DNA from: an uncultured Opitutia bacterium
GTDB taxonomy: Bacteria; Verrucomicrobiota; Verrucomicrobiia; Opitutales; UBA953
DNA length: 45,055 bases
Direction: 5' to 3'
Assembly (NCBI GenBank): GCA_903919185.1
Contig: CAIXHF010000090.1
Coordinates: 1-45,055, forward strand
Position 1 is the stretch's first letter; every line of letters begins with the position of its first letter. This document shows positions 11,722-41,767 of this stretch, one piece after another. The translations under genes and the position numbers were made by a program. Under the pieces are notes generated by a model. The model saw only the letters and a program-made list of their open reading frames with translations. It was not told where the DNA came from and searched no databases.

Positions 11722-11934
11722 GCGAAGGGTTTGGATTGAGGCAGGACACCCCCCTGTCAATGCCACATCGTAAAAAAATCGTAATTTTCCAATTTTCCTC
11801 AGCAATATTCGAGGAACTGTCCGAGGCTTACCCCTCGGAGGTAACCTCGACCGGACAGGCCACCCAACGGTTCTGCAGGCGTCCCCACCGGCTAAGCGCA
11901 ACTCAATGAGCCCAGGAAGGTGGTGCGGTATGGT

Positions 11935-14226: not shown

Positions 14227-17200
14227 CTACCTCTTAGTCCTCGGGGTCGACGTCTTCAGCGACGATAAGTAGGCGACGACATCCCGTACCTCGGCCGGGG
14301 TCAGAATCCCGAGCATCGGCGGCATCATTGACATCGGCTGAGTGCGGCTGACGACCGAGCCGGGCGCGACGTCCTTCATAACCCCATCCGCTTGGCGTAA
14401 GCGTAAGGCCACTGGGGTCTCGCTGATGACGCTACCAGCAAGGACCTCCCCCGACTTCAAGGTCAGGGTCTCGAACCCAAAACCTGGCACAATCTTCGCG
14501 GAAGGATTAACGAGCGACTCGGCGAGTTCCGCCGGCGTCCGTTGCTCGCCGACTTTCTTGAGAAGCGGTCCGACCTCGCTGCCTTCGTCCAGCTCGAATC
14601 GATGACAGGCGACACAATTGGCAGCGAGATGTTCTTGCGCGAGGGTGCGGCCGCGCCCGGGATCTCCTCCCGCGATTAAGAGTTCGTAGGGTAGCCCAGG
14701 CGCGGCCAGCTGCTCCGGCTTGCGAGCGACTTCGAGGTATCGTTGCAGGGCAACCTGGACCGCTGGCTCGGTCGAGCCCTGCGCAGCAAGGAAGACATCT
14801 AAACGGAGGGACTCGTTGAACTTGGGCTGTAGTAGTTTGTTGACTAGGGCTAGGCGCGGCTGACTCGCCGCCGCTTCGGTGCTGGCGAAGAGCACGCGGA
14901 CCGCGGCTTGCTTCTCGGTGAGATTAGACCCGGCGACGTCAAGGAAACGGCGGGCGACCGACAAGGTGCTGGCGGGGTCAACTTGGGCTAGCAATTGCAA
15001 CCCTTCGATACGTAATGTCGTTTCGCTCCCATCGTTGGTGGCGGCCAAGATGGCTTCCTTGATGGCGACGGAGGACTCCGTCTTAGCCGACAGGAGCCGG
15101 AGGACCTGCAAGCGGACCAACGCACCGACCTTGGTGTCCTTGGCTAACTTCAATAAATCAGCGGTCGGTACGTCCAGCCCGTAGCGAACGAGGATTTCGA
15201 CGCCCTTCGCCTTAAGTGACTCGTTTTTAAACGCTAGTAACTTGGCCTGACCTTGACGTAGCACGGCCACCAGGGCAGCGCGATCGCGTTGGGTGTAGCG
15301 CTTTGCCGTACCATCAACGAGGTCAAGGACGGGCGGAAGTTCGAAGATCAAAAGGGCTTGGAGTGCTTCATCCACCAAGGGGGTAGACTCTGGCTGCGCC
15401 TGTAGCCATAGGAGGATCCGCGTGGCAGCCTCGGGGCTACCTTCGCGGAGGTTCTGATTGATTACCCGACGCAAGGCCGTGGTGGGTAGGGCAGACTGGC
15501 CTAATGACTGAGCCAAAGCGGACTGCGCGGCAGGGATGCCTTCGTCGTCATGGATCGCGCGGATGGCTTCGTTGAGAACGTCCTGGTGCGGAGAAGCCAG
15601 TAACTGGGCCAACAGCGGGGAACGCTGCCTGGCCAAGGCCAAGGTAGCAAAGGTAGCCTGGGCGGCGTCCCGGCCTTGGGCCAGTTTCAGCAAATCTTCC
15701 GACCGCTGCGTCCCGGCTAAACCCATGACTAAGCCATGTCGCAGCCACGGCATCTTCAAGTCAGCGGCGGCATCGTGGAGAAAAGCACCTAAGGGGGCTG
15801 GCGTGGCGTCCAAGCCAACGCGACCTAAACCTAACCGCCCCAAGCTGATGCCAGCCTGCATCCGAAGGCGTGGGTTTTGAGTAGACAGTTGCGCAATCAT
15901 TTTCTCAGCAATGGCATCACCGATTTCGGTTTCGAGCGTCAGGCGCGTGGGCGGAGGTAAGCGACCTTCCGACAAGACCTTGAGCGTCTGCACACGAATT
16001 TCATCGTCCGCATCGCCCAAGAGCTGTGTCACCCCTTGAAGTGAAGGGAGCCGACCATGGCGCAAGCCCATGCCCCAACCCCAGATTGCATGAATGCGCG
16101 CGAGGCGCTCACGCTTATCATTCAGAGCGACGGCTAGCAGGTCGGCCCAAGCCCCAAGTCGATCTAAGCGGAGTGTGGCATTGGCGCGGACCCGTTGGTC
16201 CGGGTGTCCCAACAACGCCAGCAGACGCTCTTTCGGCAGCGGAGTTGAAAGCGGCAGCGAAAGGATTTCTTTGGATACAGGATCGGTCTTCGTGGCGACG
16301 TCCATGTTCCAGACCGCCCCTTTACCGTCGAGCGGGTAGCCGCCCATCCAGTCCGCGAAGTAGGCCTTACCGTCGGGCCCCCAGGCCATCCCGATGCCCA
16401 TGATGCCTCGGTTGATCGTGCGGAGACCCACCATCTTGAAACTATCAGCGGCGGGTTGGAGAGCGAAAGCGTCCATCTTGCCGTTCGGGAACTGATTGAG
16501 GATGAACTGCTCGCGCAGGGAGCCATCCAGCGCATGGCCCGGCTCACGCAGGAACCCCGCGGGGCCGTCGGAGTAATTGGCGACCGGCGAGGTGTAGCAG
16601 AGGGGCTGATTCTGGGCACCGGAGGGCTGCCAGATGTTTTCACGCATCCAGCGGCTGTTCAGCTTCATGTACTGATGCTGATTCCGCCAACCCGAGTCGG
16701 AACCTTCAACGATATAGACAAGCCGTTCCCGCTCCTTGGGTTGATCGGCATCGTTGTCCACGCCGATGATGTTACCGAGGTCGTCGAAGGCGATTTCCTG
16801 GACGTTGCGAATGCCTGAAGCGAAGACCTCGAAGCCGGTGCCATCAGGCTCCGCACGCAGCACGGCGCCGGTGTGCGGGAAGAAGAAGCGCTTACCTTCC
16901 TTGCTAAGCACGTTTGTCCCCTTGTCGCCGATGGTCCAGTAGATGCGGCCATCGGGACCGAGACGTAAGCCATGCATGTCGTGGCCCGCGTAAGCGATAT
17001 GGGCGCCGAAGCCGGTGGCCACCAACTCCTTCACGTCGGCAACGCCGTCGCCATCGGTATCCTTTAACCGCCAAAGATCCGGTTGGACGGTCACATAGAC
17101 CCACCCATCATGATAAAGGATTCCTGCGGCAATGCCCGAGACGACGGAATTGAAGCCCTCGGCGAAGAGGGTGATCTTATCCGCCACGCCATCGCCGTCC

Positions 17201-17574
17201 GTATCGACCAGTTTATAGATGCGCTCTTTATGGAAGGTGAGGTCCTTCCAATCAACGCTGCCATCGCCGTTGTGATCCTTGACGCTACCACGTGGGCCAC
17301 GAAGGACGCCTGGTGCCATCACTCGCTTATAGAAAGCCTCCTTCTCGAGCGGAGAGGTGAGGGCGACGTCCTCTGCAATCCACTGAGTATGCTCGCGGAT
17401 GTCGAGGTCGGCCACTTTACGACGGGTCGTGGTACACACGTAGACCGCCCCTTTTTCGTCGACAGTCACGGCTACGGGGTCGGGCACATTGATTGCCCCA
17501 GACCACTTTACAGGAGTCACTTCCGCCGCCGCTAGGCCGAGGCAGAAGGCAAACAGGGCAAGCAGAGAGCGCAT
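14227..17574 (-). CDS. PVC-type membrane-bound dehydrogenase (NHL/glucose-sorbosone-like propeller) with HEAT repeats and C-terminal cytochrome c domain
   Basis: Signal peptide; DGDGVADKITLFAEGFNSVVSGIA, LRLGPDGRIYWTIGDKG, RVRANATLRLDRLG HEAT-like repeats, heme motif CVACH, LKSGEVLAGSVISETPVALRLRQADG, ILTPAEVRDVVAYLSSLK. Confidence 0.88.
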   Translation of the reverse strand: MRSLLALFAFCLGLAAAEVTPVKWSGAINVPDPVAVTVDEKGAVYVCTTTRRKVADLDIREHTQWIAEDVALTSPLEKEAFYKRVMAPGVLRGPRGSVKDHNGDGSVDWKDLTFHKERIYKLVDTDGDGVADKITLFAEGFNSVVSGIAAGILYHDGWVYVTVQPDLWRLKDTDGDGVADVKELVATGFGAHIAYAGHDMHGLRLGPDGRIYWTIGDKGTNVLSKEGKRFFFPHTGAVLRAEPDGTGFEVFASGIRNVQEIAFDDLGNIIGVDNDADQPKERERLVYIVEGSDSGWRNQHQYMKLNSRWMRENIWQPSGAQNQPLCYTSPVANYSDGPAGFLREPGHALDGSLREQFILNQFPNGKMDAFALQPAADSFKMVGLRTINRGIMGIGMAWGPDGKAYFADWMGGYPLDGKGAVWNMDVATKTDPVSKEILSLPLSTPLPKERLLALLGHPDQRVRANATLRLDRLGAWADLLAVALNDKRERLARIHAIWGWGMGLRHGRLPSLQGVTQLLGDADDEIRVQTLKVLSEGRLPPPTRLTLETEIGDAIAEKMIAQLSTQNPRLRMQAGISLGRLGLGRVGLDATPAPLGAFLHDAAADLKMPWLRHGLVMGLAGTQRSEDLLKLAQGRDAAQATFATLALARQRSPLLAQLLASPHQDVLNEAIRAIHDDEGIPAAQSALAQSLGQSALPTTALRRVINQNLREGSPEAATRILLWLQAQPESTPLVDEALQALLIFELPPVLDLVDGTAKRYTQRDRAALVAVLRQGQAKLLAFKNESLKAKGVEILVRYGLDVPTADLLKLAKDTKVGALVRLQVLRLLSAKTESSVAIKEAILAATNDGSETTLRIEGLQLLAQVDPASTLSVARRFLDVAGSNLTEKQAAVRVLFASTEAAASQPRLALVNKLLQPKFNESLRLDVFLAAQGSTEPAVQVALQRYLEVARKPEQLAAPGLPYELLIAGGDPGRGRTLAQEHLAANCVACHRFELDEGSEVGPLLKKVGEQRTPAELAESLVNPSAKIVPGFGFETLTLKSGEVLAGSVISETPVALRLRQADGVMKDVAPGSVVSRTQPMSMMPPMLGILTPAEVRDVVAYLSSLKTSTPRTKR

Positions 17575-17584
17575 CACACTCTCT

Positions 17585-17704: not shown

Positions 17705-18046
17705 TCAGGCGTCGTTAGCCAGAACTTCGGCGATTTGGAGCGGGAGGATTGGCTTACCCTCACGGGAGAGCCAGCCGCCGCTTTGCAGCAGACAGGAGGG
17801 GTCCGAAGAGACCACGTAATCGGCACCAGTCCTGGCGAGAGCGCCGTGGAAGACGCTGAGTGCGCGGATGGCTCCCTCGCGGGCGACGTCCCATTGTCCC
17901 GAATTAAAGGAAGGTTGGCCGCAGCAGGTCTGTTCGGCACGGAATTCCACATCGTGTCCAAGGCGCTTAAGCACCCTGGCCGTGGCCAAGCCTACCTAAG
18001 TGGCGAGCTGATCAAAGAAGCAAGGAACGAAGCGCGAAATGCGCAC
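17705..18046 (-). pseudogene. lutA: lutA (lactate utilisation Fe-S protein A) pseudogene: nonsense codon plus internal deletion
   Basis: Minus-strand reading from GTG 18046: VRISRFVPCFFDQLAT*VGLATARVLKRLGHDVEFRAEQTCCGQPSFNSGQWDVAREGAIRALSVFHGALARTGADYVVSSDPSCLLQSGGWLSREGKPILPLQIAEVLANDA*. TAG at 17998-17996 is in frame with LutA-like sequence on both sides; the first CCG repeat joins directly to the C-terminal SCL…AEVLA segment. Confidence 0.85.
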
Positions 18047-18049
18047 GTT

Positions 18050-20242
18050 TTAGCGGAGGAAGGCCTCATGGAGGCCGCCGTCGACCGTGATAATCTGGCC
18101 GGTCGTCTTGCTGAGGCGATTAGTCACGAGGAGGAAATAGGCTTCGGCCTGGTCGGCAGGGGTGATGGGGTTCTTGGTCAGGGTCCGATCGGCGTAGAAA
18201 CGGGAGAGCTTCGTGGTCAGCGAATCGGTCGCCTCATCATCGGTGTAAGGAATGTTGTACTTCGCAAGCGAAGCAATCACTCGGTCGCGCGGGAACATGG
18301 CCGAACCCTGGACGACGGTCGCCGGGGCGACGCCGTTGACGCGGACCAGCGGGGAGAGTTCCATGGCCAACTCGCGGACGAGGTGGTTGGCGGCGGCCTT
18401 CGAGGTATCGTAGGCGACGGACCCCTTCTTGGCCACCGCGGCATTAGCGCTCGTGGTGAGGACGAGGTTACCGCGGAGGCCCTGTTCCTTCCAGGTGACG
18501 AAGGCTTCGTCCGCGACGAGGTAGCTGCCGGTGACATTGAGGGCGAAGGTCAGAGCCCACTTGTCGTCCGGGATATGGCCAGTGGTGTCCGGCGAGACGA
18601 AGATACCCGCCGTGACGCAGATGGAGTCAAAACAACCGTAGGCGAGGGCGACCTGATCCAGCATCTTGCGGATCGAAGCTCGGTCCATGATGTCGCCGCC
18701 GAGGCCGATGGCCGGGCCGCAATTCGAGAGGCCCGTGCCGGCGACGCCGATGCCGACGCCGTGCTTGGCAGTGATTTCCTTGGCCGTGGCTTGGGCGGCT
18801 TCGACGTTCTTGTCGACGCAGACGATATGGGCGCCTTCCTTGACGAGGCGGTGGGCGGTTTCCTTACCAATACCCGAGCCAGCACCGACGACGATGATGA
18901 CCTGACGGGCGAGTTCCTTCTCGGCCGGCATGCGCTTGAGTTTGGCTTCTTCGAGGAGCCAATACTCGATATCGAAGGCTTCCTGCTGCGGCAGGGAGAC
19001 ATACTCGTCGATGGCTTCTGCGCCGCGCATGACTTCGACGGCACAGTTATAGAATTCAGCCGTGACGCGGGATTCGGACTTATCCTTACCCCACGCAATC
19101 ATGCCCAGGCCAGGGATGAGGACAACGGTCGGGTTCGCATCGCGCATGGCGGGCGAGTTCGCACGCTTACAGGCGTTGTAATAAGTGGCGTAGTCCTTGC
19201 GGTACTGTTCGAGACTGGTGGCCAGCTTGGCCTTGAGGGCGGCGACGTCTTCGGACTGCGGATTCCAAGCCACATAGAGGGGCTTGATCTTCGTGCGGAG
19301 GAAGTGGTCCGGGCAGGAGGTGCCGAGTTCGGCGAGGCGCGGGGCATCGATCGAGTTGACGAAACGGAGAATCTTTTCGTCGTCCTGAATGGTACCGACG
19401 AAGCGCTTCTCCATGGAGACTTGACCGCGCAGCCACGGCAGGATGGCCGCGAGGGTGGCGTGACGCTGCTCGGTTTCGAGCGTCTGGTACTTGGCGCCGC
19501 CGAAGGCCTTGGCGTCACCGCCCTTGGCCTGGTACTTGCCATCGATATAGGCCGCCGCCTGCTCGATCATGGCCAAAGTCAGCTCGTAGCAGGCCTTGTC
19601 GTCGTCCGCCCAAGAAATGAAGCCGTGCTGGCCCATCATGATAGCTTTGATGTCCGGCTGGGCGCGGGAAATATCCTGCATGGCGAGGCCGAGCTCGAAG
19701 CCCGGGCGCATCCACTTCACGTAAGCCATTTTACCAGCAAAAATCTGCTTGGTCAGCGCCTCGCAATTCTTGGAGGCAGCAATCGAGATAATCGCATTAG
19801 GGTGCATGTGGTCGACATGCTTGCCTGGCAGGAAACTGTGCAGCGGGGTATCAATCGAAGAAGCGCGCGGGTTGAGATTGAACGTGGTGTGGTTATACAT
19901 CGCCACCATGTCGTCCTCGGCCTGGGACTTCAGGCCCTTGTCAGCGCGGTCCGCATAGACCGACTGCAGGCTAATGAGCTTATCCTGATAGAGGGAGGAG
20001 AAATTCTCCCGGAGGCTCGTGCGCAGGTCGCCGCCCGAACCCTTGACCCAGAGCACCGGGGTGTCCTTGCCAGACAGTGGGTCCTTTTCAACAATCTTGG
20101 AGGAGGTGTTGCCGCCGCCCGTGTTGGTGATGCGCTGATCAGCGCCCAACTGATTGGAGCGGTAGATCAGGCGAGCCACGGGATCGAGTTTCGCCGCTTC
20201 GGCGTCGTTCCAGAGGTGGGAGACGTACTTGTAGGTAGACAT
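18050..20242 (-). CDS. Bifunctional class II aldolase / short-chain dehydrogenase (rhamnulose-1-phosphate aldolase/lactaldehyde dehydrogenase type)
   Basis: N-terminal class II aldolase (NTGGGNTSSKI, HMHPNAII), C-terminal SDR (VIIVVGAGSGIGKETAHRL, YDTSKAAANHLVRELAMEL, GQIITVDGGLHEAF). Confidence 0.92.
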   Translation of the reverse strand: MSTYKYVSHLWNDAEAAKLDPVARLIYRSNQLGADQRITNTGGGNTSSKIVEKDPLSGKDTPVLWVKGSGGDLRTSLRENFSSLYQDKLISLQSVYADRADKGLKSQAEDDMVAMYNHTTFNLNPRASSIDTPLHSFLPGKHVDHMHPNAIISIAASKNCEALTKQIFAGKMAYVKWMRPGFELGLAMQDISRAQPDIKAIMMGQHGFISWADDDKACYELTLAMIEQAAAYIDGKYQAKGGDAKAFGGAKYQTLETEQRHATLAAILPWLRGQVSMEKRFVGTIQDDEKILRFVNSIDAPRLAELGTSCPDHFLRTKIKPLYVAWNPQSEDVAALKAKLATSLEQYRKDYATYYNACKRANSPAMRDANPTVVLIPGLGMIAWGKDKSESRVTAEFYNCAVEVMRGAEAIDEYVSLPQQEAFDIEYWLLEEAKLKRMPAEKELARQVIIVVGAGSGIGKETAHRLVKEGAHIVCVDKNVEAAQATAKEITAKHGVGIGVAGTGLSNCGPAIGLGGDIMDRASIRKMLDQVALAYGCFDSICVTAGIFVSPDTTGHIPDDKWALTFALNVTGSYLVADEAFVTWKEQGLRGNLVLTTSANAAVAKKGSVAYDTSKAAANHLVRELAMELSPLVRVNGVAPATVVQGSAMFPRDRVIASLAKYNIPYTDDEATDSLTTKLSRFYADRTLTKNPITPADQAEAYFLLVTNRLSKTTGQIITVDGGLHEAFLR

Positions 20243-20285
20243 GGTGCTTTGCTGGTAAAGGCAGGGAAGGGAGGCTTAAGCAGGT

Positions 20286-21755
20286 TTATGACTTCTTTAA
20301 ACCATTAAACTTCACTAAGGCGTCGAGCCAATGAAGGGTGGGGTTGGGTTTGTAAGTGACTACTTCAAAGGACTTTCGGACCACTCCGCGCAGGGCATCG
20401 AGGTTCTTTAACTCCTTCATGGCGACGGCTTGGACGAGGATATTACCGGCGGCGGTGGCTTCGACCGGGCCGGCGATGACCGTCCGGCCCGTGGCGTCAG
20501 CCGTGGCTTGGTTAAGGAGCGCATTGCGGCAGCCGCCACCGACGATGTGTAAAGTCGCGAGCTTACGGCCCGTCAGTTTCTCGATGCCGTCCATCTCGAC
20601 GCGGTAGAGGAGAGCCAGCGACTCCAGCACGCAGCGGGCGACCTCTCCATGGGTTTGCGGTACCGGCTGCTTAGTCTCGCGGCAGAAATCTTGGACCTTC
20701 TTCACCATATCGCCGCGCTTGGCGAAACGGACGTCGTCCGGACGGATGAAGCTGCGGAGCGCTGGAGCCTTCAGGGCGAGCTTTACAATCTCACCGTAGT
20801 CGGAAACTTCCCCGCGCTCCAACCACTCGCGACGGCATTCCTGCAGGACCCACAGGCCTACGAGATTTTTGAGGAAGCGAGTCGTGCCCGCAAAGCCGAC
20901 TTCGTTCGTATACTTCGCCTCGCGTACGGTCTCGTTGACTAACGGCTTGGGTAGTTCGACGCCCAAGAGCGACCACGTCCCGGAAGAGAGGTAAGCCCAG
21001 TCGTCACCCTTCGTTGCCGGCACCGCAGCAACTGCCGCCGCGGTATCATGCGCGCACGTCGTGACGACGTCGGCGGACTTGAGGCCGGTTTCCTTACTCA
21101 GGTAAGGGAGGAGTTTCCCGAGCTTGGTGCCCGGAGCCACTGGCTTCGGGAAGATATGCTTGGGAATCCCGAGCTTCTTGAGTACCGGCCAAGCCCAGTC
21201 GCGCTTACGGGTATCCCACAGCTGACTGCCAGAAATGAGCGTCTCTTCGGCGCGGGCTTGGCCGGTGAGCAGCCAAGTGATGTAGTCGCCAATGAGCAGG
21301 AACTTGTCAGCAAAAGCCAGGATCTCAGGGCGGTTCTCCACGTCGTCAAACAACTGATAGAGCGTATTGATAGAGATAGACGCAATGCCAGTGCCTTCAA
21401 ATAATTGCTTCTGCGAGAACTTCTTCATAGCCTTGTCGAAGGACTTAAAGCTGCGCTCGTCGCGATAGGTGTAGGGCAGGGATAGCATCGGGCCATCGCC
21501 CTTGAGCAAGACGTAGTCGACGCCCCAGGAGTCGCAAGCAATCGACCGAATCGGGCCGAGCTTGGCCCCCTTGGCTAGGCCGATACGAATTTCGCGAAAG
21601 ATGCGGACAATATCCCAGCGCAAGGTGCCGTTGGCCGTGATTGCACCGTTCGAGAAACGGTGAATCTCCTTCATCGTAAGCTTACCACCCTTGAGGGTCC
21701 CGAAGATCACGCGGCCGGATTCGGCGCCGAGGTCGATGGCAAGGTAGTTGGACAT
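20286..21755 (-). CDS. rhaB: Rhamnulokinase / FGGY-family carbohydrate kinase
   Basis: MSNYLAIDLGAESGRVIFGTL; CDSWGVDYVLL; LHIVGGGCRNALLNQATADATGRTVIAGPVEATAAGNILVQA. Confidence 0.9.
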   Translation of the reverse strand: MSNYLAIDLGAESGRVIFGTLKGGKLTMKEIHRFSNGAITANGTLRWDIVRIFREIRIGLAKGAKLGPIRSIACDSWGVDYVLLKGDGPMLSLPYTYRDERSFKSFDKAMKKFSQKQLFEGTGIASISINTLYQLFDDVENRPEILAFADKFLLIGDYITWLLTGQARAEETLISGSQLWDTRKRDWAWPVLKKLGIPKHIFPKPVAPGTKLGKLLPYLSKETGLKSADVVTTCAHDTAAAVAAVPATKGDDWAYLSSGTWSLLGVELPKPLVNETVREAKYTNEVGFAGTTRFLKNLVGLWVLQECRREWLERGEVSDYGEIVKLALKAPALRSFIRPDDVRFAKRGDMVKKVQDFCRETKQPVPQTHGEVARCVLESLALLYRVEMDGIEKLTGRKLATLHIVGGGCRNALLNQATADATGRTVIAGPVEATAAGNILVQAVAMKELKNLDALRGVVRKSFEVVTYKPNPTLHWLDALVKFNGLKKS

Positions 21756-22574: not shown

Positions 22575-23351
22575 TTAGGCGGTGAGTACGCGGTCGGGAG
22601 CCATCTTGACCTTCGCCTGCACGACAGCGGCGGCATCAGCGTCCGTCACTAGGAATAGCGTGGAAACATCACGGGTCACCGCGCAGGGACCGCCCCGGCC
22701 AAGCTTTACCTTATTCATACAAATCAACACTTCATCGCTGCGCCGGATAACCTCACGCTGTTGGTGGGAAATATCGCGCTGCGAATTCCAGAGACCGTTC
22801 TCGTCGATGCCTTCGGCGCCGAGGAGAGCCACGTCAAAATTCCAACGGGCAACTTCTTCGAGCGTACGATCGCCGGCGACCATGGCGTGACGGGTCAGGA
22901 ACAAACCGCCAGGAATGTAGACCTCGACGCCTGGGAGCGAGGAGATCAATTGAGCCGTTGGGAGACAGGTCGTCACAATCTGCAAATCAGGGGTGCCAGA
23001 AGCGGCGATGGCTTCAGCGGCGAAGAAGATGGTTGAACCGGAGTCGAGATAGACCGTCATACCAGCCTTGATGCGGGAAGCCGCCTTATTGCCGATCTTG
23101 CGCTTAGCTTCGGCGTCCTCAACCTTGCGATCATCGAGCGGCGGGAAGTTACGGTTGAAGTCCGAAAGTGCGCCACCATGCGTGCGGGTGATGCGACGCT
23201 GACTTTCCAATTCAGTGAGGTCGCGGCGGGCAGTGGCCTCGGAAACATTAAATTGCTTACAGATTTCGAGAACAGGGACGTAACCGACCTTACTCAGTAA
23301 CTTAGCGATAGCTTCACGACGGGCTTCAATGATATGGCGGGCGACTTTCAT
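22575..23351 (-). CDS. DeoR/GlpR-family transcriptional regulator
   Basis: N-terminal HTH (RREAIAKLLSKVGYVPVLEICKQFNVSEATARRDLTELESQRRITRTHGGAL) and DeoR sensor domain (KAASRIKAGMTVYLDSGSTIFFAAEAI). Confidence 0.92.
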   Translation of the reverse strand: MKVARHIIEARREAIAKLLSKVGYVPVLEICKQFNVSEATARRDLTELESQRRITRTHGGALSDFNRNFPPLDDRKVEDAEAKRKIGNKAASRIKAGMTVYLDSGSTIFFAAEAIAASGTPDLQIVTTCLPTAQLISSLPGVEVYIPGGLFLTRHAMVAGDRTLEEVARWNFDVALLGAEGIDENGLWNSQRDISHQQREVIRRSDEVLICMNKVKLGRGGPCAVTRDVSTLFLVTDADAAAVVQAKVKMAPDRVLTA

Positions 23352-23556
23352 GGGGGATCCGATTTATGCTCGATAACCCTCAAGCAATCAATAACGCATT
23401 TTCTAGTAGGTTGAGCTTATAGGTATATTTCGCACAATATACATTATGTCTAATCCTTAAATAGTCAGCAAATCAAGGGCTATATACCATGTTTATCGTA
23501 TTGTCTTGGGGGTTTATACGGGGTCGATTATTTGTATAAATATCAGGCAATAAAGC
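23352..23556. promoter_or_regulatory. AT-rich divergent intergenic region with perfect inverted repeat GTATATT-tcgcac-AATATAC (23423-23442)
   Basis: Sharp drop in GC relative to surroundings between the deoR-type regulator (-) and the amidase (+); 7-6-7 inverted repeat read directly. Confidence 0.6.
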
Positions 23557-24450
23557 ATGTCTCCCTCATATTTAAAGCGTTTAGCGGTTTTTTGTTCAAT
23601 TTTAGCCATCACCGGCTGTGGCACCACCTCTTCGAAAAACTCCGGTGAGTCGACCGGCGTTGTTATCAACGTTAACCCCAAGCTCTCGGTGATTCAGGGG
23701 CCCGCGTCCGCTGCCGTCGAGGTCCGCAAGCAGCCCATCTCGATTCTAGTGCTACACCATACCGCCTCCTCCCTGCCCTCCGCGCTAGAGACCCTGCAGG
23801 GGCGGAACAAAGGACATACGGTTGGCGTCCACTACCTGGTCAGCGCCGAGCTACCCCAGGCACGGATCTTCCGGATGTGTCCCGACTCCCTCGCCGCATT
23901 CCATGCGGGCAAAAGCGCCTGGGGTAAATTCGATAGCCTCAACCAGTCTTCGCTGGGCATCGAGATCGTTAATTACGACGGCAATGTAAACCCATACCCC
24001 AAACCCCAGGTCGAAGCCGTCCTCGCGTTAGCCCAGTACTTAGTGGCCACCCACCAGATCAGCCCTGAGAACGTAGTCGCCCACTCCGACATCGCAGTCG
24101 GTCGTAAAATTGATCCGGGCTCGTTGTTTCCCTGGGAATATTTTGCCGCCAACGGCGTCGGCGCTTGGCCCGATACCAAGGATGTTCAGGCGTTCCGTAT
24201 CTTACTCAAATCCAAGAAGCTCTCGAACGCCGCAATCCAGCAGCTGCTGCGGACCTACGGCTACCGCCTAGATGATAACTCGGACAAGACGCTGGGCCTA
24301 GCGCTCGAATCGTTTCAACGCCACTTCCGTGGGTCCAAGGTCGATGGCGTCGCGGACGACGAAACGGTCGCCCTCCTGCAAGCTTTGGTGAAGAAGTATC
24401 GTAGCGCCCCACCGAAAGTCGCCTCCCCTGCCCGCTCCGGCAAGGTGTAA
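23557..24450 (+). CDS. N-acetylmuramoyl-L-alanine amidase (Amidase_2/AmpD-like) lipoprotein with C-terminal peptidoglycan-binding domain
   Basis: Lipobox-like LAITGCGTTS; LVLHHTASS, GVHYLVS, VVAHSDIAVGRKIDPGSLFPW; PG_binding_1-like C-terminus (IQQLLRTYGYRLDDNSDKTLGLALESFQRHF). Confidence 0.88.
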   Translation: MSPSYLKRLAVFCSILAITGCGTTSSKNSGESTGVVINVNPKLSVIQGPASAAVEVRKQPISILVLHHTASSLPSALETLQGRNKGHTVGVHYLVSAELPQARIFRMCPDSLAAFHAGKSAWGKFDSLNQSSLGIEIVNYDGNVNPYPKPQVEAVLALAQYLVATHQISPENVVAHSDIAVGRKIDPGSLFPWEYFAANGVGAWPDTKDVQAFRILLKSKKLSNAAIQQLLRTYGYRLDDNSDKTLGLALESFQRHFRGSKVDGVADDETVALLQALVKKYRSAPPKVASPARSGKV

Positions 24451-24975
24451 CTATTCCGTCACGACCGCCACGACCGCCTGCGTTTGCCGGTGATAGTGGC
24501 AGAGCATTGCTGGTACCACTTGCTCTTCAGCTAAGCGCCAGCCCAAGGCCTTGAGGGTGGCTTCATACTTCGCCCAGGCGTGGGCAAAGGTCTCGGCTCG
24601 CAGCCGAGATTGCTGGATGCGTTCAGTTACGAGTACTCCCAGATACTTTCCGGCCACGTCCATCATTTCCGGGAAGTCCTGGGCCAAGACTGCATCGCAA
24701 CCCAATTTGGCCTGTGCCCCCAACGCGACCCAGCCGTCTTCCCCATCGTAGGAGATGGAGAGCTTTAAAGGGCAGCCGGTCAAAGTCGGCGCTAAGCCAG
24801 TCTCGTGGAGTTCCACCACTGCACCATACCAAGCGCGCAGTAACTTCAAAATCTCGCGCCGCAAGGTCGCCTTAGCAGCAGGCCCACGGCCGAGCTCCGG
24901 CAAACGGATAAGGTATAGGTCGGCCGCTTGGGGCGCTGGCAATAATGCCGCTTCCGAAAGGTCGTAGACTTTCAT
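24451..24975 (-). CDS. Divergent 4'-phosphopantetheinyl transferase superfamily protein
   Basis: LKLSISYDGEDGWVALGAQAKLGCDAV (cf. Sfp-type SHS…GVDxE) and FAHAWAKYEATLKALGWRL (cf. WxxKEAxxKxxG); encoded right after the NRPS (1-nt gap). Confidence 0.75.
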   Translation of the reverse strand: MKVYDLSEAALLPAPQAADLYLIRLPELGRGPAAKATLRREILKLLRAWYGAVVELHETGLAPTLTGCPLKLSISYDGEDGWVALGAQAKLGCDAVLAQDFPEMMDVAGKYLGVLVTERIQQSRLRAETFAHAWAKYEATLKALGWRLAEEQVVPAMLCHYHRQTQAVVAVVTE

Positions 24976-24976
24976 C

Positions 24977-27900
24977 TTAGTTCATGGGCGCTGGCGCCGA
25001 GGGCGTGCCTTCCCACGAGGTGCGCGCTGGCGTGTGCTCACCCTTGGCCACCAAGGTCAACGGCCCAAGGCGACATTCTTCCCCCACGGAAGCATCATAG
25101 AGCACGGTGGCGCGCACGCCCAAGGTGGCACGGGCACCAATGTTGACTAAGCCTATCCGCATGACCCGGTCTTCGAACAAATGCGTCTGCGGTCCGCTGT
25201 GCTCATTCAGTTCCGCCCCATCACCGATGGTGACACAGTCGAACTCCGTTAGGTCCGTGGTATTAATCCAGGTGCCGCGCCCGACGTTCACACCCAGTAG
25301 CCGTAAGGCCCACGCGAGCATTGGGGTGCCTCGGAGGTAATTGAGTAACGCCGGCACCGCCAAGGATTCATGCAGAATCGTCACGGCTTCACTCAGCCAA
25401 ACAAACAACGTCCACATGGGCGCCAGGCGTGGACGATACTTGCCGATTAAAAGCCACTTAGCCGACCAAACGAAGGCGAAGGCAATCGCGGCGTAGCACA
25501 GCCCCGCCAGCGTCAACGCGACCGCGAAGCCCAGCCAGTCTTCTTCCGTCACATAATCCATGGTCTCGTAGACGGTCACGTAACCTACCGCGATGATGAA
25601 GGCCAAGGGCACGACGATACGCAGGCCTTCGATGCAGGCACGAGCCAAGCGACGACCTTTACTCGGGCGGAAGGTCAGCGTCGGATCCTGCGACTCAATG
25701 GTCTCACGCGCGGGCAAAAGCATCGGCGGAGACCCCATCCAGGTCTGCCCCGGCTGCATCTGCTCGTTGGTCGGCGAACTGGACTGCACCCCGAGCAGGA
25801 AGTCCTCGGGGAAGGTCGTACCATCTGGGACGTAGGCGCCGTTACCCACAAAGGAACGATGGCCGATGCGCGTCCGACGAAGCACCATCCAACCGCCACG
25901 TTGCTCTTCATCGCCGAGCATCGCCCCGTCTGCGATAAAAGATTCATCACCTAATTCCAAAAGCTCCGGCACGACCCCTTCGGCCGTTGAGACTTCAGCA
26001 TCGCGGCCAACTTTCGTGCCGAGCAACCGAAGCCAGGTGGCAACATAGACCGAGGCGTATAAACCGTGTAGGACCTGCAAGGAAGCATCCATGACGGCGG
26101 AGAGTTGCCACTTCCAGAAATACTCTCGACCGTACAAGGAAAAGCGACCTGGGCGTTGCCGCGGTAGGCATTGCTTTAATATACCAGCTAGGCAGGCCGT
26201 GATAACCAAGAGAATCGCCGCTGCTGGCATGGCGAGCAGGAAGAAGAATGGAAAGGTTTCCCACCAGGCGTGGTCTGACTCAAACAGATCGAGCCAGTGT
26301 GCATCCAAATAGTCGATGGCGACAAAACTTGGGAACACCGGGATATAGAAAAGGACGGCCACTAAGGCCGCCCCCAACGCGAAGGCTCCCATCCTTGCAT
26401 AGCGTTCCCACACGCTGGGTCGCGCGGGCGGAGCAGTTACCACGGTATCGGACTCCACCGGACGAGCCGGTGCCCCCGCCCAGGTCTCGCCGGCGGGGAT
26501 ATGCTTCGACTCCGCCAAGGCGGACTGTCCGGCCAATCTGGCGCCGTCCCCGACCGAGGTATCGTTCTCAAGCACCGCGTAAGAATCCACGGCGGCACCA
26601 CGGCCAATCGTGATACGACCGATGATGAGTCGGCCGCCTTCCACGCGAGCGTTCTCCAAATTCACGAAGGTGCCAAGACAGGCGCCGTCCCCAATCGTCA
26701 GGAGTTCCGGCACCGATACGGTGACCGAATTGATGAGACAGTCTCGGCCGACCTTAGCCCCAAGGAGACGCAGGTGCAGGGACTTCCAGGGGGTGCCCGA
26801 AATGAGGTAGACCGCTGGGATTTCGTTGAGGCGGGCGCCAAGCCACCAACGGAAATAGGTTTCGCCCCAGAGCGGATAGTTGCCCGGACGAAGTCGGCCC
26901 ACCAGTAGCCGCCGTAGCAGAATGCCCAAGGGGAACGATAACGCCAACGCTACTAAGTAAGTGCCTAACGCTGCCACGATCGCGACGACTATGCTGTCAT
27001 CGGTGTCGCCAGTCAGAAGGTGGTAGGCAAAGAACGGAGCCAACCACTGGAACATGTGCAGTAGGACGAGGAAAGGCAGACAGGCAGCCTGGGCGCAGCC
27101 GCACCAAAACCGGCGATTGAGCGGAGCGACCTCATGGGCCGGTGCTGGACGACCCGGGGTCGACGCCCCGAGGCCAGCCATCGCTTGGGCCAACGCTCCG
27201 AGCTGACGATTACGGTAGACGTGCTGAACGCCCATACTCGCATAGCGCGGGTCACGACGGAGACGCGTGACCAAGCGCGCCGCGAGCAAGGAATGGCCAT
27301 TGAGGTCTGAAAAGAAATCGACTTCGGGTGCCAAGCGTCGTCCCGGGAAAAACTCGGCTAAAATTGCACGCAAGGCGGCTTCGTGCTCGTTAGCGGCCGG
27401 CGGAGCATCGGCAACTGCCGCCACCTGCAGATCACGTTTACGCAATGCACCCAAGTCCACCTTACCCGAACTTAACCGGGGCATGCTCTCCAAGACCTCG
27501 ACGTGGGCGGGCAACATATAAACCGCCAAGCGTCGGGCCAAGGCTGCGCGTAAGTCGGCCATGTTCGGCGCCGTGCCAGACGCGACGATGAAGGCGACGA
27601 TTTCATCGCTGCCCGCCAATGGACGGACAACAGCCGCCGCTGTACCGACGCCAGATTGGTCCGCCAGCGCCGCCGAAATTTCGTCGAGCTCGATGCGGAA
27701 CCCACGGAGTTTCACCTGATTATCGACGCGCCCAAAACACAGAATTTCGCCCGAGGTATCAATCCGCCCCAAGTCGCCCGTCAGGTAGGCCCGCTGGCCA
27801 GCGATTTCGATAAACCGAGCGGCGGTGAGTTCGGCCCGTCCGAGATAGCCATTGGCTAAACCTGGCCCGAAAACGACAATCTCACCAGCCTCCCCCTGGG

Positions 27901-28933
27901 CAACGAGCCGGCGCTCCGGGTCACAGATGCCAATGTGATAATTAGGCAAAGGACGGCCAATCGTAACTGGCTTACCTGGTCGGAGTTCAGCGAGGGTCGC
28001 CGTGACCGTCGTCTCAGTCGGACCATATGTATTAAAGACTTCGTAGCCCTTACCCGTCAAACGTTCCGATAAGGCATCGGGACAAGCCTCGCCTCCTAAG
28101 TTCAATAAGCGAAGCGAGGACGGCAAGGCTGGCATCAAGGCGACCAGCGTCGGCACGGCATGCAGGACGGTGAGGCGATGGGCAGTCAAGGCCGCTGCAA
28201 CAGCGTCGGGATCAGATACGGTCTCGACGGGGGCGACCCAGAGCGTGGCACCCGCCAGGAAAGAAATCCAGACCTCCTCCACCGACATATCAAAGGCGAC
28301 GGAGAAGCCTTGGTAGACTCGGTCGTCGGCCCGAATCCGCAACACGTGGTTTTCACTGCGAACAAAGTGGCAGACGTTGCGTTGTGAGATGGCGATACCT
28401 TTGGGCTCGCCCGTCGAACCCGAGGTATAAATCACATAGGCATTATCCGATGGCGCCGCTCTAACAATCACGCCGTCCCCAACGACGGGTAAAGTGGCCA
28501 TGACCACCGGAGTTAAGCCACGCTCAAGTACCGCTGCGGACATACCCGCTTCGGTCAGCACCAAAGTACCGCGCGCATCCCGCATGCAGGTTGCCAAGCG
28601 ATCTGGTGGCACGGCCACGTCAAAGGGTAGCCACGCGGCTCCCGACAGCGCGATGCCCACCTGTCCGACGATGAGGTCGCGACCGCGCGACATCCATAGC
28701 CCCACACATTGACCAGGCATAACGCCGCCAGCCCGCAGTCCAGCCGCGACACCCTCCGCCCTGGATAACAAGTCCTGATAAGTCAGGATGCCTTGGGCAT
28801 CCTCCAAGGCAATGGCGGCAGGCTGCCGGTGGACCGTTGCCCGGAAGATATCCGCCAAACACTCGTCGCGGATTAATTCGGGGAGGTCGGGGCCGGTTAA
28901 AATCATGGGGGACGTCTGTAGAACAACTTCCAT
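24977..28933 (-). CDS. Pls/PosA-like non-ribosomal peptide synthetase: adenylation, thiolation, and TM helices alternating with three left-handed beta-helix/acetyltransferase-like domains
   Basis: A domain: AYVIYTSGSTGEPKG, FDMSVEEVW, NLGGEA, NTYGPTETTVTATL, YLTGDLGRI, GRVDNQVKLRGFRIE, SSGKVDL. T domain: FFSDLNGHSLLAARL. Three hexapeptide-rich soluble domains (LLGAKVGRDCLINS…, LLGTKVGRDAEVST…, LLGVNVGRGTWINT…) separated by hydrophobic helices. Single module of about 1320 aa without classical C or TE domains. Confidence 0.88.
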   Translation of the reverse strand: MEVVLQTSPMILTGPDLPELIRDECLADIFRATVHRQPAAIALEDAQGILTYQDLLSRAEGVAAGLRAGGVMPGQCVGLWMSRGRDLIVGQVGIALSGAAWLPFDVAVPPDRLATCMRDARGTLVLTEAGMSAAVLERGLTPVVMATLPVVGDGVIVRAAPSDNAYVIYTSGSTGEPKGIAISQRNVCHFVRSENHVLRIRADDRVYQGFSVAFDMSVEEVWISFLAGATLWVAPVETVSDPDAVAAALTAHRLTVLHAVPTLVALMPALPSSLRLLNLGGEACPDALSERLTGKGYEVFNTYGPTETTVTATLAELRPGKPVTIGRPLPNYHIGICDPERRLVAQGEAGEIVVFGPGLANGYLGRAELTAARFIEIAGQRAYLTGDLGRIDTSGEILCFGRVDNQVKLRGFRIELDEISAALADQSGVGTAAAVVRPLAGSDEIVAFIVASGTAPNMADLRAALARRLAVYMLPAHVEVLESMPRLSSGKVDLGALRKRDLQVAAVADAPPAANEHEAALRAILAEFFPGRRLAPEVDFFSDLNGHSLLAARLVTRLRRDPRYASMGVQHVYRNRQLGALAQAMAGLGASTPGRPAPAHEVAPLNRRFWCGCAQAACLPFLVLLHMFQWLAPFFAYHLLTGDTDDSIVVAIVAALGTYLVALALSFPLGILLRRLLVGRLRPGNYPLWGETYFRWWLGARLNEIPAVYLISGTPWKSLHLRLLGAKVGRDCLINSVTVSVPELLTIGDGACLGTFVNLENARVEGGRLIIGRITIGRGAAVDSYAVLENDTSVGDGARLAGQSALAESKHIPAGETWAGAPARPVESDTVVTAPPARPSVWERYARMGAFALGAALVAVLFYIPVFPSFVAIDYLDAHWLDLFESDHAWWETFPFFFLLAMPAAAILLVITACLAGILKQCLPRQRPGRFSLYGREYFWKWQLSAVMDASLQVLHGLYASVYVATWLRLLGTKVGRDAEVSTAEGVVPELLELGDESFIADGAMLGDEEQRGGWMVLRRTRIGHRSFVGNGAYVPDGTTFPEDFLLGVQSSSPTNEQMQPGQTWMGSPPMLLPARETIESQDPTLTFRPSKGRRLARACIEGLRIVVPLAFIIAVGYVTVYETMDYVTEEDWLGFAVALTLAGLCYAAIAFAFVWSAKWLLIGKYRPRLAPMWTLFVWLSEAVTILHESLAVPALLNYLRGTPMLAWALRLLGVNVGRGTWINTTDLTEFDCVTIGDGAELNEHSGPQTHLFEDRVMRIGLVNIGARATLGVRATVLYDASVGEECRLGPLTLVAKGEHTPARTSWEGTPSAPAPMN

Positions 28934-28954
28934 TCCGGAGAGTTGCAAAAAACT

Positions 28955-30538
28955 TTAGCGGCGGAGGCGCAGCCGGCGCAGGAGACGGTCGCCCAAGCCC
29001 AGCACCATATCGCGCTCCGGATACTTCCACCAAACTAGCACAACCGCGTAGAGCGCTGCGGCGATGCCTCCCGCCAAGGCCATTGAGAAGAGAAGATTAA
29101 CTTTCGTATTCAACCAAGGCTGCCCAACCCTAAACAAGAGGGTATAACCTTGATAAGCCACGAAGCCCATGACCAAGGAGCCCACGAGTGCTTGGACCAA
29201 CGGGACCGTTAGGTTCTCCGTCAGAAACGCCGGAGCCGTCCGGCGCAACTGATAACGCAACAGGAAATATTGCACCACGGCAGAGGCCGCATTGGCCACG
29301 GCCAGTCCTTCGATGCCATAGTTAAACCAGACCGCCGCAATCGAACCCGTAATGTTTATGCCGACGGCCCACAGGGCGACTCGGAAGGTCGCTTGGGTCT
29401 GGCCAGCGACGTTCAAAGCGCGCGTCGCCATCGAAATCATCGCATGGAAAGGCATCGCCAAGGCAAAGAGGACGAGGACGGAACGTGTCTTCGTGCAGTC
29501 CTCGGCGGTGAAACGACCGAACTCAAAGAGTAGCCGGATAATCTGCTCAGAATAAACGGCGAGCCCGATGGCCGCACCAATGTTGATCGCGAGAATCAGG
29601 CGCATCCCTCGGGCGTAGTTGCGCCCCATTGCGGCATGGTCCTTCTCCACGAAAGCCGTCGCCATCGCCGGGAACATCACCGTGGTAATGGCCGTCGAGA
29701 AAAGCCCAATCGGAAGCTCGACGATGCGGTTGGCGATGTAGTAATACGTCAGCGAGGAGCCGGCGAGGTCGAACGCCAAAGACCGCGAAATCAGGAAGTT
29801 GATCTGGAGGATCCCTGCGCCCAGAGCCGCCGGAATGAAGGCGACGCGGAGGGCCTGCCAAGCGGCGACATCGGCCCGTACCGGCGCACTCCGCCACCCG
29901 GCTTGATGGAGACCCCACATCGGAATCAGTAGCTGCAGCGTGCCGCCCGCCAAGGTGCCGAAGCACAACCAACGCGCCCGCCCCAAGTCGCCATCGCCAA
30001 GATAATACCCAAAGAAGCCTAAGCCTAAAATCATGCAGACGTTCAGGCACGCGGATGCCATCTCCGCCAAACCGAAGCGGCCGCTTAAGTTAACGGCGGA
30101 GGTGAACAGCGCCGCGACGCAGATCAGCGGCATATACGGCATACACCACGCCGTGAACTCCGCGGAATTCACATAACGCGGATTCTTGAACAGCATCATC
30201 GCTAAGAGCGAAGTGCCGATGCTGACGAGCGTGATGCCAAGGAGCCACGGAAGAATCTTGCGCAGGACGTAGTTTAAAAAGGCGTGCGCGGCGGGGCGGC
30301 CATGCTTCGCTTCGATTTCCGCCATGACCGGAACCGTCGCCGCCGTCAAAGCACCCTCGCCGAGCAGGCGGCGGAAGAGGTTCGGAATCTGAAAGGCAAA
30401 AAGAAACGCCGCGCCAATCGCGCTGGCACCAAAGAAGGCCGCAATGAGCTGGTCGCGAAAGAGCCCCAGCACACGCGACACCATCGTCCAGGAGGCCGTC
30501 TTGGCCATAGCCTGATACTGGCGCGTCTGCTCAGACAT
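28955..30538 (-). CDS. murJ: Lipid II flippase MurJ (MviN)
   Basis: Polytopic MOP-superfamily protein: SRVLGLFRDQLIAAFFGAS, AFQIPNLFRRLLGEGALTAATVPV, multiple TM segments. Confidence 0.94.
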   Translation of the reverse strand: MSEQTRQYQAMAKTASWTMVSRVLGLFRDQLIAAFFGASAIGAAFLFAFQIPNLFRRLLGEGALTAATVPVMAEIEAKHGRPAAHAFLNYVLRKILPWLLGITLVSIGTSLLAMMLFKNPRYVNSAEFTAWCMPYMPLICVAALFTSAVNLSGRFGLAEMASACLNVCMILGLGFFGYYLGDGDLGRARWLCFGTLAGGTLQLLIPMWGLHQAGWRSAPVRADVAAWQALRVAFIPAALGAGILQINFLISRSLAFDLAGSSLTYYYIANRIVELPIGLFSTAITTVMFPAMATAFVEKDHAAMGRNYARGMRLILAINIGAAIGLAVYSEQIIRLLFEFGRFTAEDCTKTRSVLVLFALAMPFHAMISMATRALNVAGQTQATFRVALWAVGINITGSIAAVWFNYGIEGLAVANAASAVVQYFLLRYQLRRTAPAFLTENLTVPLVQALVGSLVMGFVAYQGYTLLFRVGQPWLNTKVNLLFSMALAGGIAAALYAVVLVWWKYPERDMVLGLGDRLLRRLRLRR

Positions 30539-30544
30539 CGGGGT

Positions 30545-31882
30545 TTAAGGCAAGATGGCCCGCATGCCCTCTTCCAATACGGCTCGTAAAGCCGGGACCA
30601 AGTCGGTCCGTGGGATTTCGGCTTCGGTCCGGTCCGTGAGGCTACGCACCTTGGTCACGCCCTTGGCAACTTCCTCGCCGCCATAAACGAGCGCATACTT
30701 CGCCCCCGCGGTTTCGGCCTGTTGGGCGAGCTTGCCGAATTTTCCATCGCGTAAGTTATACTCAACGCGGAAACCCGCGCGACGGAGGTTGGCGACGTCT
30801 TCCAAGGCCGCGCTCCGCGCATCAGGACCGAGCACCATGACAAAGAAGTCTGGGCCATCAGCATAAGCCGGGATGAGTTTCTTGGCTTCAAGCAAATCAC
30901 GCAGCGTAACGTCCCCCATACCAAAGCCAACGGCCGGAAGATCCGGACCACCGAGCTTCTTAACCAAGGCATCGTAACGACCGCCGCCCGCCAAGGCGCG
31001 GGCTTCGCCACCGGTTTCAAAGGCTTCGAAGACAAAGCCCGTGTAATAGGCTAAGCCGCGTACAATCGTAAGGTCCATCACGATGCATTCACCGAAGCCC
31101 ATGGACTTGAGCGTTCCGAGTAAATGATTCCATTCTTCGAGTCGCGCCGTCATCGCGGCGTCACCGGCGGCCAGTTGTGCGAGTTCTTCGAGCGAACGGG
31201 TCGCCGCAAAGGCGCGGGCGGCCGCCAAGGTCTTCTCCGCGTCGCAAGCCGTCCCGACCAACGCAGCCGTCATCGCCTCAATCAAATCCTTCGGAGCACC
31301 GCGCTCCAGTTTATCGACCACGCCGAGCACAGCCGTCGCATTGGCTTCGGGGACGCCGACGCTGGCGAGGTAACGGAACCAAAGAGTACGGTCGGAAATA
31401 CGGATGCGGAAGTCCTGCTGCGTCAGGCCGAAACCCAAAAGACAATCAGCGCAGAGTGCGATCAGCTCCGCATCGGCGGCGGGACCAGCCTCCCCCAGCA
31501 AGTCGGCGTTCAGCTGATAGAAAGCACGGAGGCGGCCTTTCTGTGGCTTCTCGTAACGGTAGTTCTCGCCAATGGCGAACCAGCGAATGGGCTTCGCCAT
31601 ACCGTTGGCGCGGGCACCGACCATACGCGCCAGCGAAGGCGTCATTTCGGGACGGAGGCTGACCTGGCGGCCGCCCTTATCCTCAAAGTTGAATAACTGC
31701 CGGACGATCTCTTCGCCGGACTTCTCGGTAAAAAGTTCCAAGGGCTCGAGCACCGGCGATTCCCACTCACGGAAACCATAACGGCGGCAGGCTTGGCGCC
31801 AGACGTCAAAGATATGCCCTAAGACCGCACGGTCTTCAGGATAGAACTCCCGGAAACCGGGTAGCGTTCGAATGTCAGACAT
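30545..31882 (-). CDS. hisS: Histidyl-tRNA synthetase
   Basis: Class II motifs: RQLFNFEDKGGRQVSLRPEMTPSLAR, GENYRYEKPQKGRLRAFYQLNADLLG, RGLAYYTGFVFE, AGGGRYDALVKKLGG. Confidence 0.96.
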   Translation of the reverse strand: MSDIRTLPGFREFYPEDRAVLGHIFDVWRQACRRYGFREWESPVLEPLELFTEKSGEEIVRQLFNFEDKGGRQVSLRPEMTPSLARMVGARANGMAKPIRWFAIGENYRYEKPQKGRLRAFYQLNADLLGEAGPAADAELIALCADCLLGFGLTQQDFRIRISDRTLWFRYLASVGVPEANATAVLGVVDKLERGAPKDLIEAMTAALVGTACDAEKTLAAARAFAATRSLEELAQLAAGDAAMTARLEEWNHLLGTLKSMGFGECIVMDLTIVRGLAYYTGFVFEAFETGGEARALAGGGRYDALVKKLGGPDLPAVGFGMGDVTLRDLLEAKKLIPAYADGPDFFVMVLGPDARSAALEDVANLRRAGFRVEYNLRDGKFGKLAQQAETAGAKYALVYGGEEVAKGVTKVRSLTDRTEAEIPRTDLVPALRAVLEEGMRAILP

Positions 31883-40682: not shown

Positions 40683-40747
40683 GGATACACCCAATGCCTC
40701 AAGGCGTTCGGCGAACTCTTTTTTCAAAACCAAGGATAACTCAGAAC

Positions 40748-41767
40748 ATGGCATATCGAATTGGCATCGTGGGCGTGACCGGCGCGGTCGGTCAAGAACT
40801 GCTGGCGTTGATGGCCAAGCGAAAGTTCCCTGTTACCGAGCTCCGCCCCCTCGCTTCGGCCCGTTCGGCTGGGTCTAAGGTCAGCTATGGTGGTCAGGAT
40901 TGGACCGTTCAGGAGGCCAAGCCAGAGGCCTTTGAAGGCCTAGATTTCGTTATCTTCAGCGCCGGCGGCTCGGTTTCCCTCGCCCTGGCCCCTGAAGCGG
41001 TCAAGCGCGGGGTCATCGTCATCGATAATAGCTCGGCCTTCCGCATGGACCCGACGGTCCCCCTCGTGGTCCCGGAGATCAACGCCCAAGCCCTGGACAA
41101 CCACCAAGGCATCATCGCGAACCCGAACTGCTCCACAGCCATCGCTTTGATGGGCCTCTTCCCCCTGCACCAAGCCTTCGGCCTAAAGCGCTTCTTCGCT
41201 TCGACCTACCAAGCGGTCTCTGGTACCGGCGCCGAGGCCATGCGCGAACTCGACACGCAAGTCCGGGCGTGGGCTAAGGGCGAAGCCTCGCCGCCCAAGG
41301 TCTACCCGCACACCATCGCCTTCAACCTCATCCCGCAGGTCGACTCCTTTCAAGAAGATGGCTACACGAAGGAAGAAATGAAGATGTTGCACGAGGGCCG
41401 TAAAATCATGGGCCTGCCCGACCTCAAGGTCACGACGACCTGCGTCCGCGTCCCCGTCTTCCGCGCGCACTCGATCGCGATCAGCGCCGAGTTCGAACGG
41501 CCGGTCGACCTTGCGGTCGCCCGCGCGGCGATTGCCGCCTTTCCCGGCGCCGAAGTCTGCGACGAACCCGCCAAGAAGCTTTACCCCATGCCGCTGGATT
41601 ATGCCGGCAAGGAAAAGTGCGGCGTGGGCCGCCTCCGTAAGGATACGCTTTTCGACAATGGCCTGTCCCTCTGGGTCAGCGGCGACCAGCTCTGGAAAGG
41701 TGCGGCGCTCAACGCCATCCAGATTGCCGAAGCCCTCCACGCCCGCGGCCGGCTGGCCCGCCGCTAA
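40748..41767 (+). CDS. asd: Aspartate-semialdehyde dehydrogenase
   Basis: MAYRIGIVGVTGAVGQELLALMAKRKFP; IANPNCSTAIALMGLFPLH; STYQAVSGTGAEAM. Confidence 0.95.
   Translation: MAYRIGIVGVTGAVGQELLALMAKRKFPVTELRPLASARSAGSKVSYGGQDWTVQEAKPEAFEGLDFVIFSAGGSVSLALAPEAVKRGVIVIDNSSAFRMDPTVPLVVPEINAQALDNHQGIIANPNCSTAIALMGLFPLHQAFGLKRFFASTYQAVSGTGAEAMRELDTQVRAWAKGEASPPKVYPHTIAFNLIPQVDSFQEDGYTKEEMKMLHEGRKIMGLPDLKVTTTCVRVPVFRAHSIAISAEFERPVDLAVARAAIAAFPGAEVCDEPAKKLYPMPLDYAGKEKCGVGRLRKDTLFDNGLSLWVSGDQLWKGAALNAIQIAEALHARGRLARR

Follow-up and report, generated by a model that had tools for sequence, protein, structure and literature searches.

A PosA-type synthetase gene in an Opitutia genome, with L-ornithine as its predicted substrate and a neighbouring phosphopantetheinyl transferase gene

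The gene pair and its encoded domains

The window analysed here is a 45,055-nucleotide stretch of contig CAIXHF010000090.1 (assembly GCA_903919185.1) from an uncultured member of the Opitutia (Verrucomicrobiota), a PVC bacterium as a sequence-only reading of the same DNA had supposed. Its minus strand carries a large posA-like gene and, directly downstream, a small gene for a phosphopantetheinyl transferase (PPTase), the neighbour that this earlier reading had also pointed out. The posA-like frame opens with a TTG codon at 28948, while an in-frame ATG at 28933, codon 6, offers an alternative start. The features of the pair are as follows, all on the minus strand.

24977..28948 (-): posA-like gene for an NRPS-like protein of 1323 aa with adenylation (A), carrier (T) and terminal membrane domains (ORF, Pfam, TIGR02353, identity to PosA)
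27461..28846 (-): adenylation domain, core residues 35-369, C-terminal subdomain 423-496 (Pfam, PosA alignment)
27251..27376 (-): carrier domain, residues 525-566, phosphopantetheine serine S553 in DLNGHSLLAA (sub-cut-off Pfam match and motif)
25001..27094 (-): TIGR02353 terminal domain, residues 619-1316, proposed polymerising membrane domain (NCBIfam profile)
26939..27085 (-): transmembrane (TM) pair 1, residues 622-640 and 652-670 (hydropathy)
26372..26938 (-): C1 segment with hexapeptide repeats, residues 671-859 (Hexapep match at 779-809; weak matches to solved hexapeptide proteins)
26189..26371 (-): TM pair 2, residues 860-878 and 902-920 (hydropathy)
25628..26188 (-): C2 segment, residues 921-1107, with family-invariant D1007, R1031 and N1036 (alignment)
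25469..25627 (-): TM pair 3, residues 1108-1126 and 1142-1160 (hydropathy)
24989..25468 (-): C3 segment, residues 1161-1320, with family-invariant E1187, E1235, Q1254, H1256 and E1304; candidate condensation site (alignment)
24451..24975 (-): divergent Sfp-type 4'-phosphopantetheinyl transferase, 174 aa, directly downstream of the NRPS gene (motifs, profile, linkage)

Pfam profiles matched the protein for AMP-binding (6e-70), AMP-binding_C (9e-6) and hexapeptide repeats (4.5e-11), and the A domain scored 361 bits against TIGR01733 (AA-adenyl-dom). The carrier domain is recognised from a sub-threshold PP-binding match (18.2 bits, below the cut-off of 20.8) together with a conserved serine motif, which reads DLNGHSLLAA here and DLGGHSLLAA in most relatives in an alignment of 27 homologues; the asparagine that replaces the usual first glycine is common to relatives of the same subclade, in which the serine is kept. 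A single N-terminal A domain and this carrier precede the terminal domain, and neither a condensation (C) nor a thioesterase (TE) family was found in the protein with Pfam, at E 0.001 or at thresholds up to E 10.

The terminal domain matches TIGR02353 ('Pls/PosA family NRPS') over profile positions 2-694 of 695; its score of 706.7 bits lies well above the curated cut-off, 423.1, so that the family membership suggested from the letters of the DNA is clearly established. Hydropathy resolves six TM helices as three pairs, alternating with three hexapeptide-repeat segments of the left-handed beta-helix type, and Pfam and hydropathy together agree with the earlier description of an A-T protein whose TM helices alternate with three such segments and which lacks classical condensation and thioesterase domains. 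The three-pair layout is that described for Pls and PosA (PMC10522769).

In an alignment of 27 homologues, a Streptomyces Pls among them, the polar positions that never vary within the terminal domain are found for the most part in its second and third segments, and we infer from their distribution that the third segment may hold its active site. A structure-database search with the terminal domain sequence gave weak matches to hexapeptide proteins, YrdA and gamma carbonic anhydrases among them, and nothing that would count as a solved relative of the membrane part. An AlphaFold model of this domain, built on an alignment of eight close relatives only, reached a mean pLDDT of 37.6, too low to bear on this proposal. 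For the condensation step we found neither a settled mechanism nor a solved structure among the members of the Pls/PosA family (PMC10522769).

Elsewhere in the window, an 857-aa ORF at 17735-20308 (+) is without a Pfam match, is fragmented in relatives and overlaps, on the opposite strand, an aldolase/short-chain dehydrogenase gene of 730 aa at 18050-20242 (-), so that it is almost certainly spurious. The real genes of that region form a sugar operon with an FGGY kinase, a second aldolase and a DeoR regulator. A large cytochrome-fused protein of 1116 aa with DUF7133, HEAT and cytochrome c domains is encoded at 14227-17577 (-), and a 652-aa ORF at 9943-11901 (-) has no Pfam match at E 0.001.

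Kinship with PosA and the substrate pocket

Among solved structures, that of PosA (8g95) matches the A domain best by a wide margin, with an E value of 7e-123 against about 1e-87 for the second-best protein. PosA of Acinetobacter baumannii (PDB 8g95-8g98), described in 2023, makes delta-poly-L-ornithine (PMC10522769). The window protein shares its order of A, T and terminal membrane domains and is 47% identical to it over the full length and 49% over the terminal domain. The phylogeny with known Pls and PosA enzymes that had been called for, a maximum-likelihood tree of 27 homologues, unites the window protein, other Verrucomicrobiota proteins and A. baumannii PosA in a clade with 100/100 support, outside which fall the Streptomyces Pls and the enzymes of Rhizobium and Azospirillum, whose codes are of the DLED type.

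Alignment to A. baumannii PosA gives the pocket code DMEHNGTVTK, formed by D220, M221, E224, H263, N283, G285, T307, V315, T316 and K496. The same columns in the A. baumannii protein L061 read DMEHNGTVSK, exactly the PosA code printed in PMC10522769, and the pocket alignment is therefore validated. (The record of L061, NZ_CP104448.1, is a 4.1-Mb replicon that the PLSDB listing gives as a plasmid; at this size it is evidently the chromosome.) Nine of the ten positions equal those of PosA, the remaining one, position 9, being a conservative change of Ser313 to threonine (T316). The hand-read pocket of the sequence-only reading, DMEHLLTVTK, went wrong at positions 5 and 6, where 'LL' should be N283 and G285; its other positions stand, including the acidic residue at position 239. 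The 'unknown substrate' code was a product of misalignment at these two positions.

In PosA, Asp217 and Glu221 are essential, the delta-amine is bound by Thr304 and Ser313, and the S313A mutation lowers efficiency 183-fold; Met218 sets the chain length, this residue being Ala in lysine enzymes and Phe in Dap/Dab enzymes (PMC10522769). The D-M-E set and the two supporting hydroxyls (T304 and S313 in PosA) all have counterparts here in D220, M221, E224, T307 and T316, and the lysine-type pocket with Ala at position 2 is absent, methionine being present. With D, M, E and T kept and a threonine hydroxyl standing in for that of Ser313, the predicted substrate is L-ornithine and the predicted product delta-poly-L-ornithine, in line with the basic amino acid first suspected; the substitution at T316 could shift activity or preference. 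The host can make ornithine, since its genome encodes ArgJ and the window holds an ArgC-like gene at 40694-41767.

The pocket DMEHNGTV[T/S]K is common to PosA and the readable Verrucomicrobiota members of its clade, bar one (L050) with S for T at position 7. Pocket codes follow the clades, with the exception of a distant Sphingomonas enzyme that also carries DMEHNGTVTK. This Pls/PosA-family enzyme, on a plasmid of Sphingomonas parapaucimobilis (NZ_CP155753), likewise has a downstream PPTase gene, but it is 39% identical, sits on a separate branch and has an extra acetyltransferase (GNAT) gene at its locus. The Streptomyces Pls, an epsilon-poly-L-lysine synthetase, resembles the window enzyme in domain order, in its TIGR02353 terminal domain and in its three TM pairs, but differs in its lysine-type pocket (DAESIGTVVK, with Ala at position 2), its 35% identity and its different deep branch. 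What distinguishes the window enzyme from PosA itself is T316 in place of S313, a different phylum and the adjacent PPTase gene; in A. baumannii, no PPTase-like gene was found in the position immediately following posA.

The PPTase gene and the placement of the cassette

The PPTase motifs GxD (D94) and WxxxEAxxK (W134, E138, K142) are conserved in alignment. The PPTase of the window scores 12.6 bits (E 0.15) against the ACPS profile, below the Pfam cut-off of 25, and the profile is matched by all 11 aligned members at E values up to 1, the best being 3.3e-9. Apart from one AcpS-like protein, no other PPTase was found in the genome, which is 89% complete. The gene follows the NRPS gene in most members of the clade, including those in which the pair occupies other genomic sites (L048, L049, L050, L059 and L060), and the two genes therefore travel together. 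The NRPS gene is under strong purifying selection, given a dN/dS of about 0.08 relative to the nearest full-length relative at a synonymous distance of 0.77; with a dN/dS of 0.14-0.18 for the PPTase gene, both are evidently maintained. The PPTase diverges much faster than the NRPS, with about 28-36% against 53-71% identity to the same relatives.

In the subclade of the window, the pair lies between murJ and a convergent amidase gene. In 11 congeners murJ and the amidase gene are immediate neighbours, and two of these genomes (G152 and G004) have an NRPS of 53% identity at another site. The G152 and G004 copies form a separate supported group in the tree, and the cassette thus has two placements in one genus. 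A full-scoring NRPS copy occurs patchily in the genus, in 10 of 37 genomes of a first sample with many incomplete MAGs. It is rare outside the genus, with matches at E 1e-60, ordinary NRPS A domains included, in 14 of 286 genomes of the class.

A MAG titled 'Akkermansia muciniphila' (L044, CALQLO010000001.1) carries the locus as it is seen in the Opitutia genus, both in gene order and in sequence (71% NRPS identity), and its title is probably wrong. An Rfam scan of 23000-31000 returned no match. A literature search for the Pls/PosA family in Verrucomicrobiota yielded no paper, and neither Verrucomicrobiota nor Planctomycetes is named in the main text of the PosA paper (PMC10522769).

Proposed function and alternatives

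We consider it highly probable, judging from homology, that the gene encodes a PosA-type synthetase with L-ornithine as its substrate and short delta-poly-L-ornithine as its product; in vitro, PosA yields 7-12-mers (PMC10522769). In the mechanism that we tentatively propose, the PPTase would load phosphopantetheine on S553, and the A domain would activate L-ornithine, with the alpha-amine held by D220, the delta-amine by E224, T307 and T316, and side-chain length limited by M221. The activated ornithine would then be loaded onto the carrier, and the terminal domain, with its six TM helices and three beta-helices, would form, over and over, a bond between the carboxylate of an ornithine and the delta-amine of a second one, so that a short isopeptide with positive charges results. 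H1256 and E1235 may help to deprotonate the attacking delta-amine. The steps up to the aminoacyl carrier are proposed because of the A-domain homology.

The same mechanism could act on a different basic amino acid, such as lysine, 2,4-diaminobutyrate or an ornithine derivative. The threonine at pocket position 9, serine in PosA, would fit this, as would the weak activation of lysine by PosA's own A domain (PMC10522769) and the other codes of more distant homologues from the same class (e.g., the lysine-like DAESIGTVIK). Nevertheless, the methionine at position 2 is an ornithine-type size gate, occupied by Ala in lysine enzymes and Phe in Dap/Dab enzymes (PMC10522769), and nine of the ten positions and the clade are those of PosA, so that we regard another substrate as improbable. 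The same pocket identity, with its single S-to-T change from the A. baumannii delta-poly-L-ornithine enzyme (PMC10522769), speaks against the undescribed polymer for which the gene had been put forward as a candidate.

An envelope modification had been offered as the other outcome, and ornithine, single or as an oligomer, might indeed be transferred to an acceptor such as peptidoglycan or lipid rather than freed as a polymer. A membrane terminal domain with acyltransferase-like beta-helices would suit such a transfer, and the only other pointer is the position between murJ and a cell-wall amidase gene in the lineage of the window. However, those two genes stand next to each other without the cassette in the 11 congeners, even where the NRPS lies elsewhere, and the linkage to the cell wall is therefore incidental; in more distant relatives the cassette is flanked by other neighbours, and PosA released free polymer in vitro (PMC10522769). 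Envelope transfer is accordingly very unlikely, and a decaying or silent gene that yields no product is hardly credible: its patchy presence and slightly altered carrier motif would fit decay, but the 1323-aa frame and the A-domain motifs are intact, the purifying selection noted above is strong, and the DLNGHS variant is a subclade trait that retains the serine.

On the preferred reading, as a delta-poly-L-ornithine synthetase, the gene product adds a member to a known kind of enzyme and brings to light neither a new polymer nor a new mechanism. What is modestly new is the occurrence of a PosA-type enzyme in small freshwater Opitutia genomes (the freshwater origin being read from the names of the Opitutae bins that are the closest named relatives, with no recorded habitat), accompanied by a PPTase of its own and lodged at two separate sites within one genus. 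A more speculative scenario, to which we give a small chance, is that a mobile poly-ornithine cassette in these genomes of about 2 Mb, composed of the synthetase and a fast-diverging dedicated PPTase, entered one genus at least twice, and that its product might have a function other than antibiosis, for instance in attachment to surfaces or in the binding of polyanions in lake water. Activity of the predicted polymer against fungi or bacteria would be presumptive. The finding extends a recently described enzyme, whose product is antifungal in vitro, to the phylum Verrucomicrobiota, and it provides several natural orthologues that differ by T or S at one pocket position, together with a candidate native PPTase, which would be useful for expressing the family.
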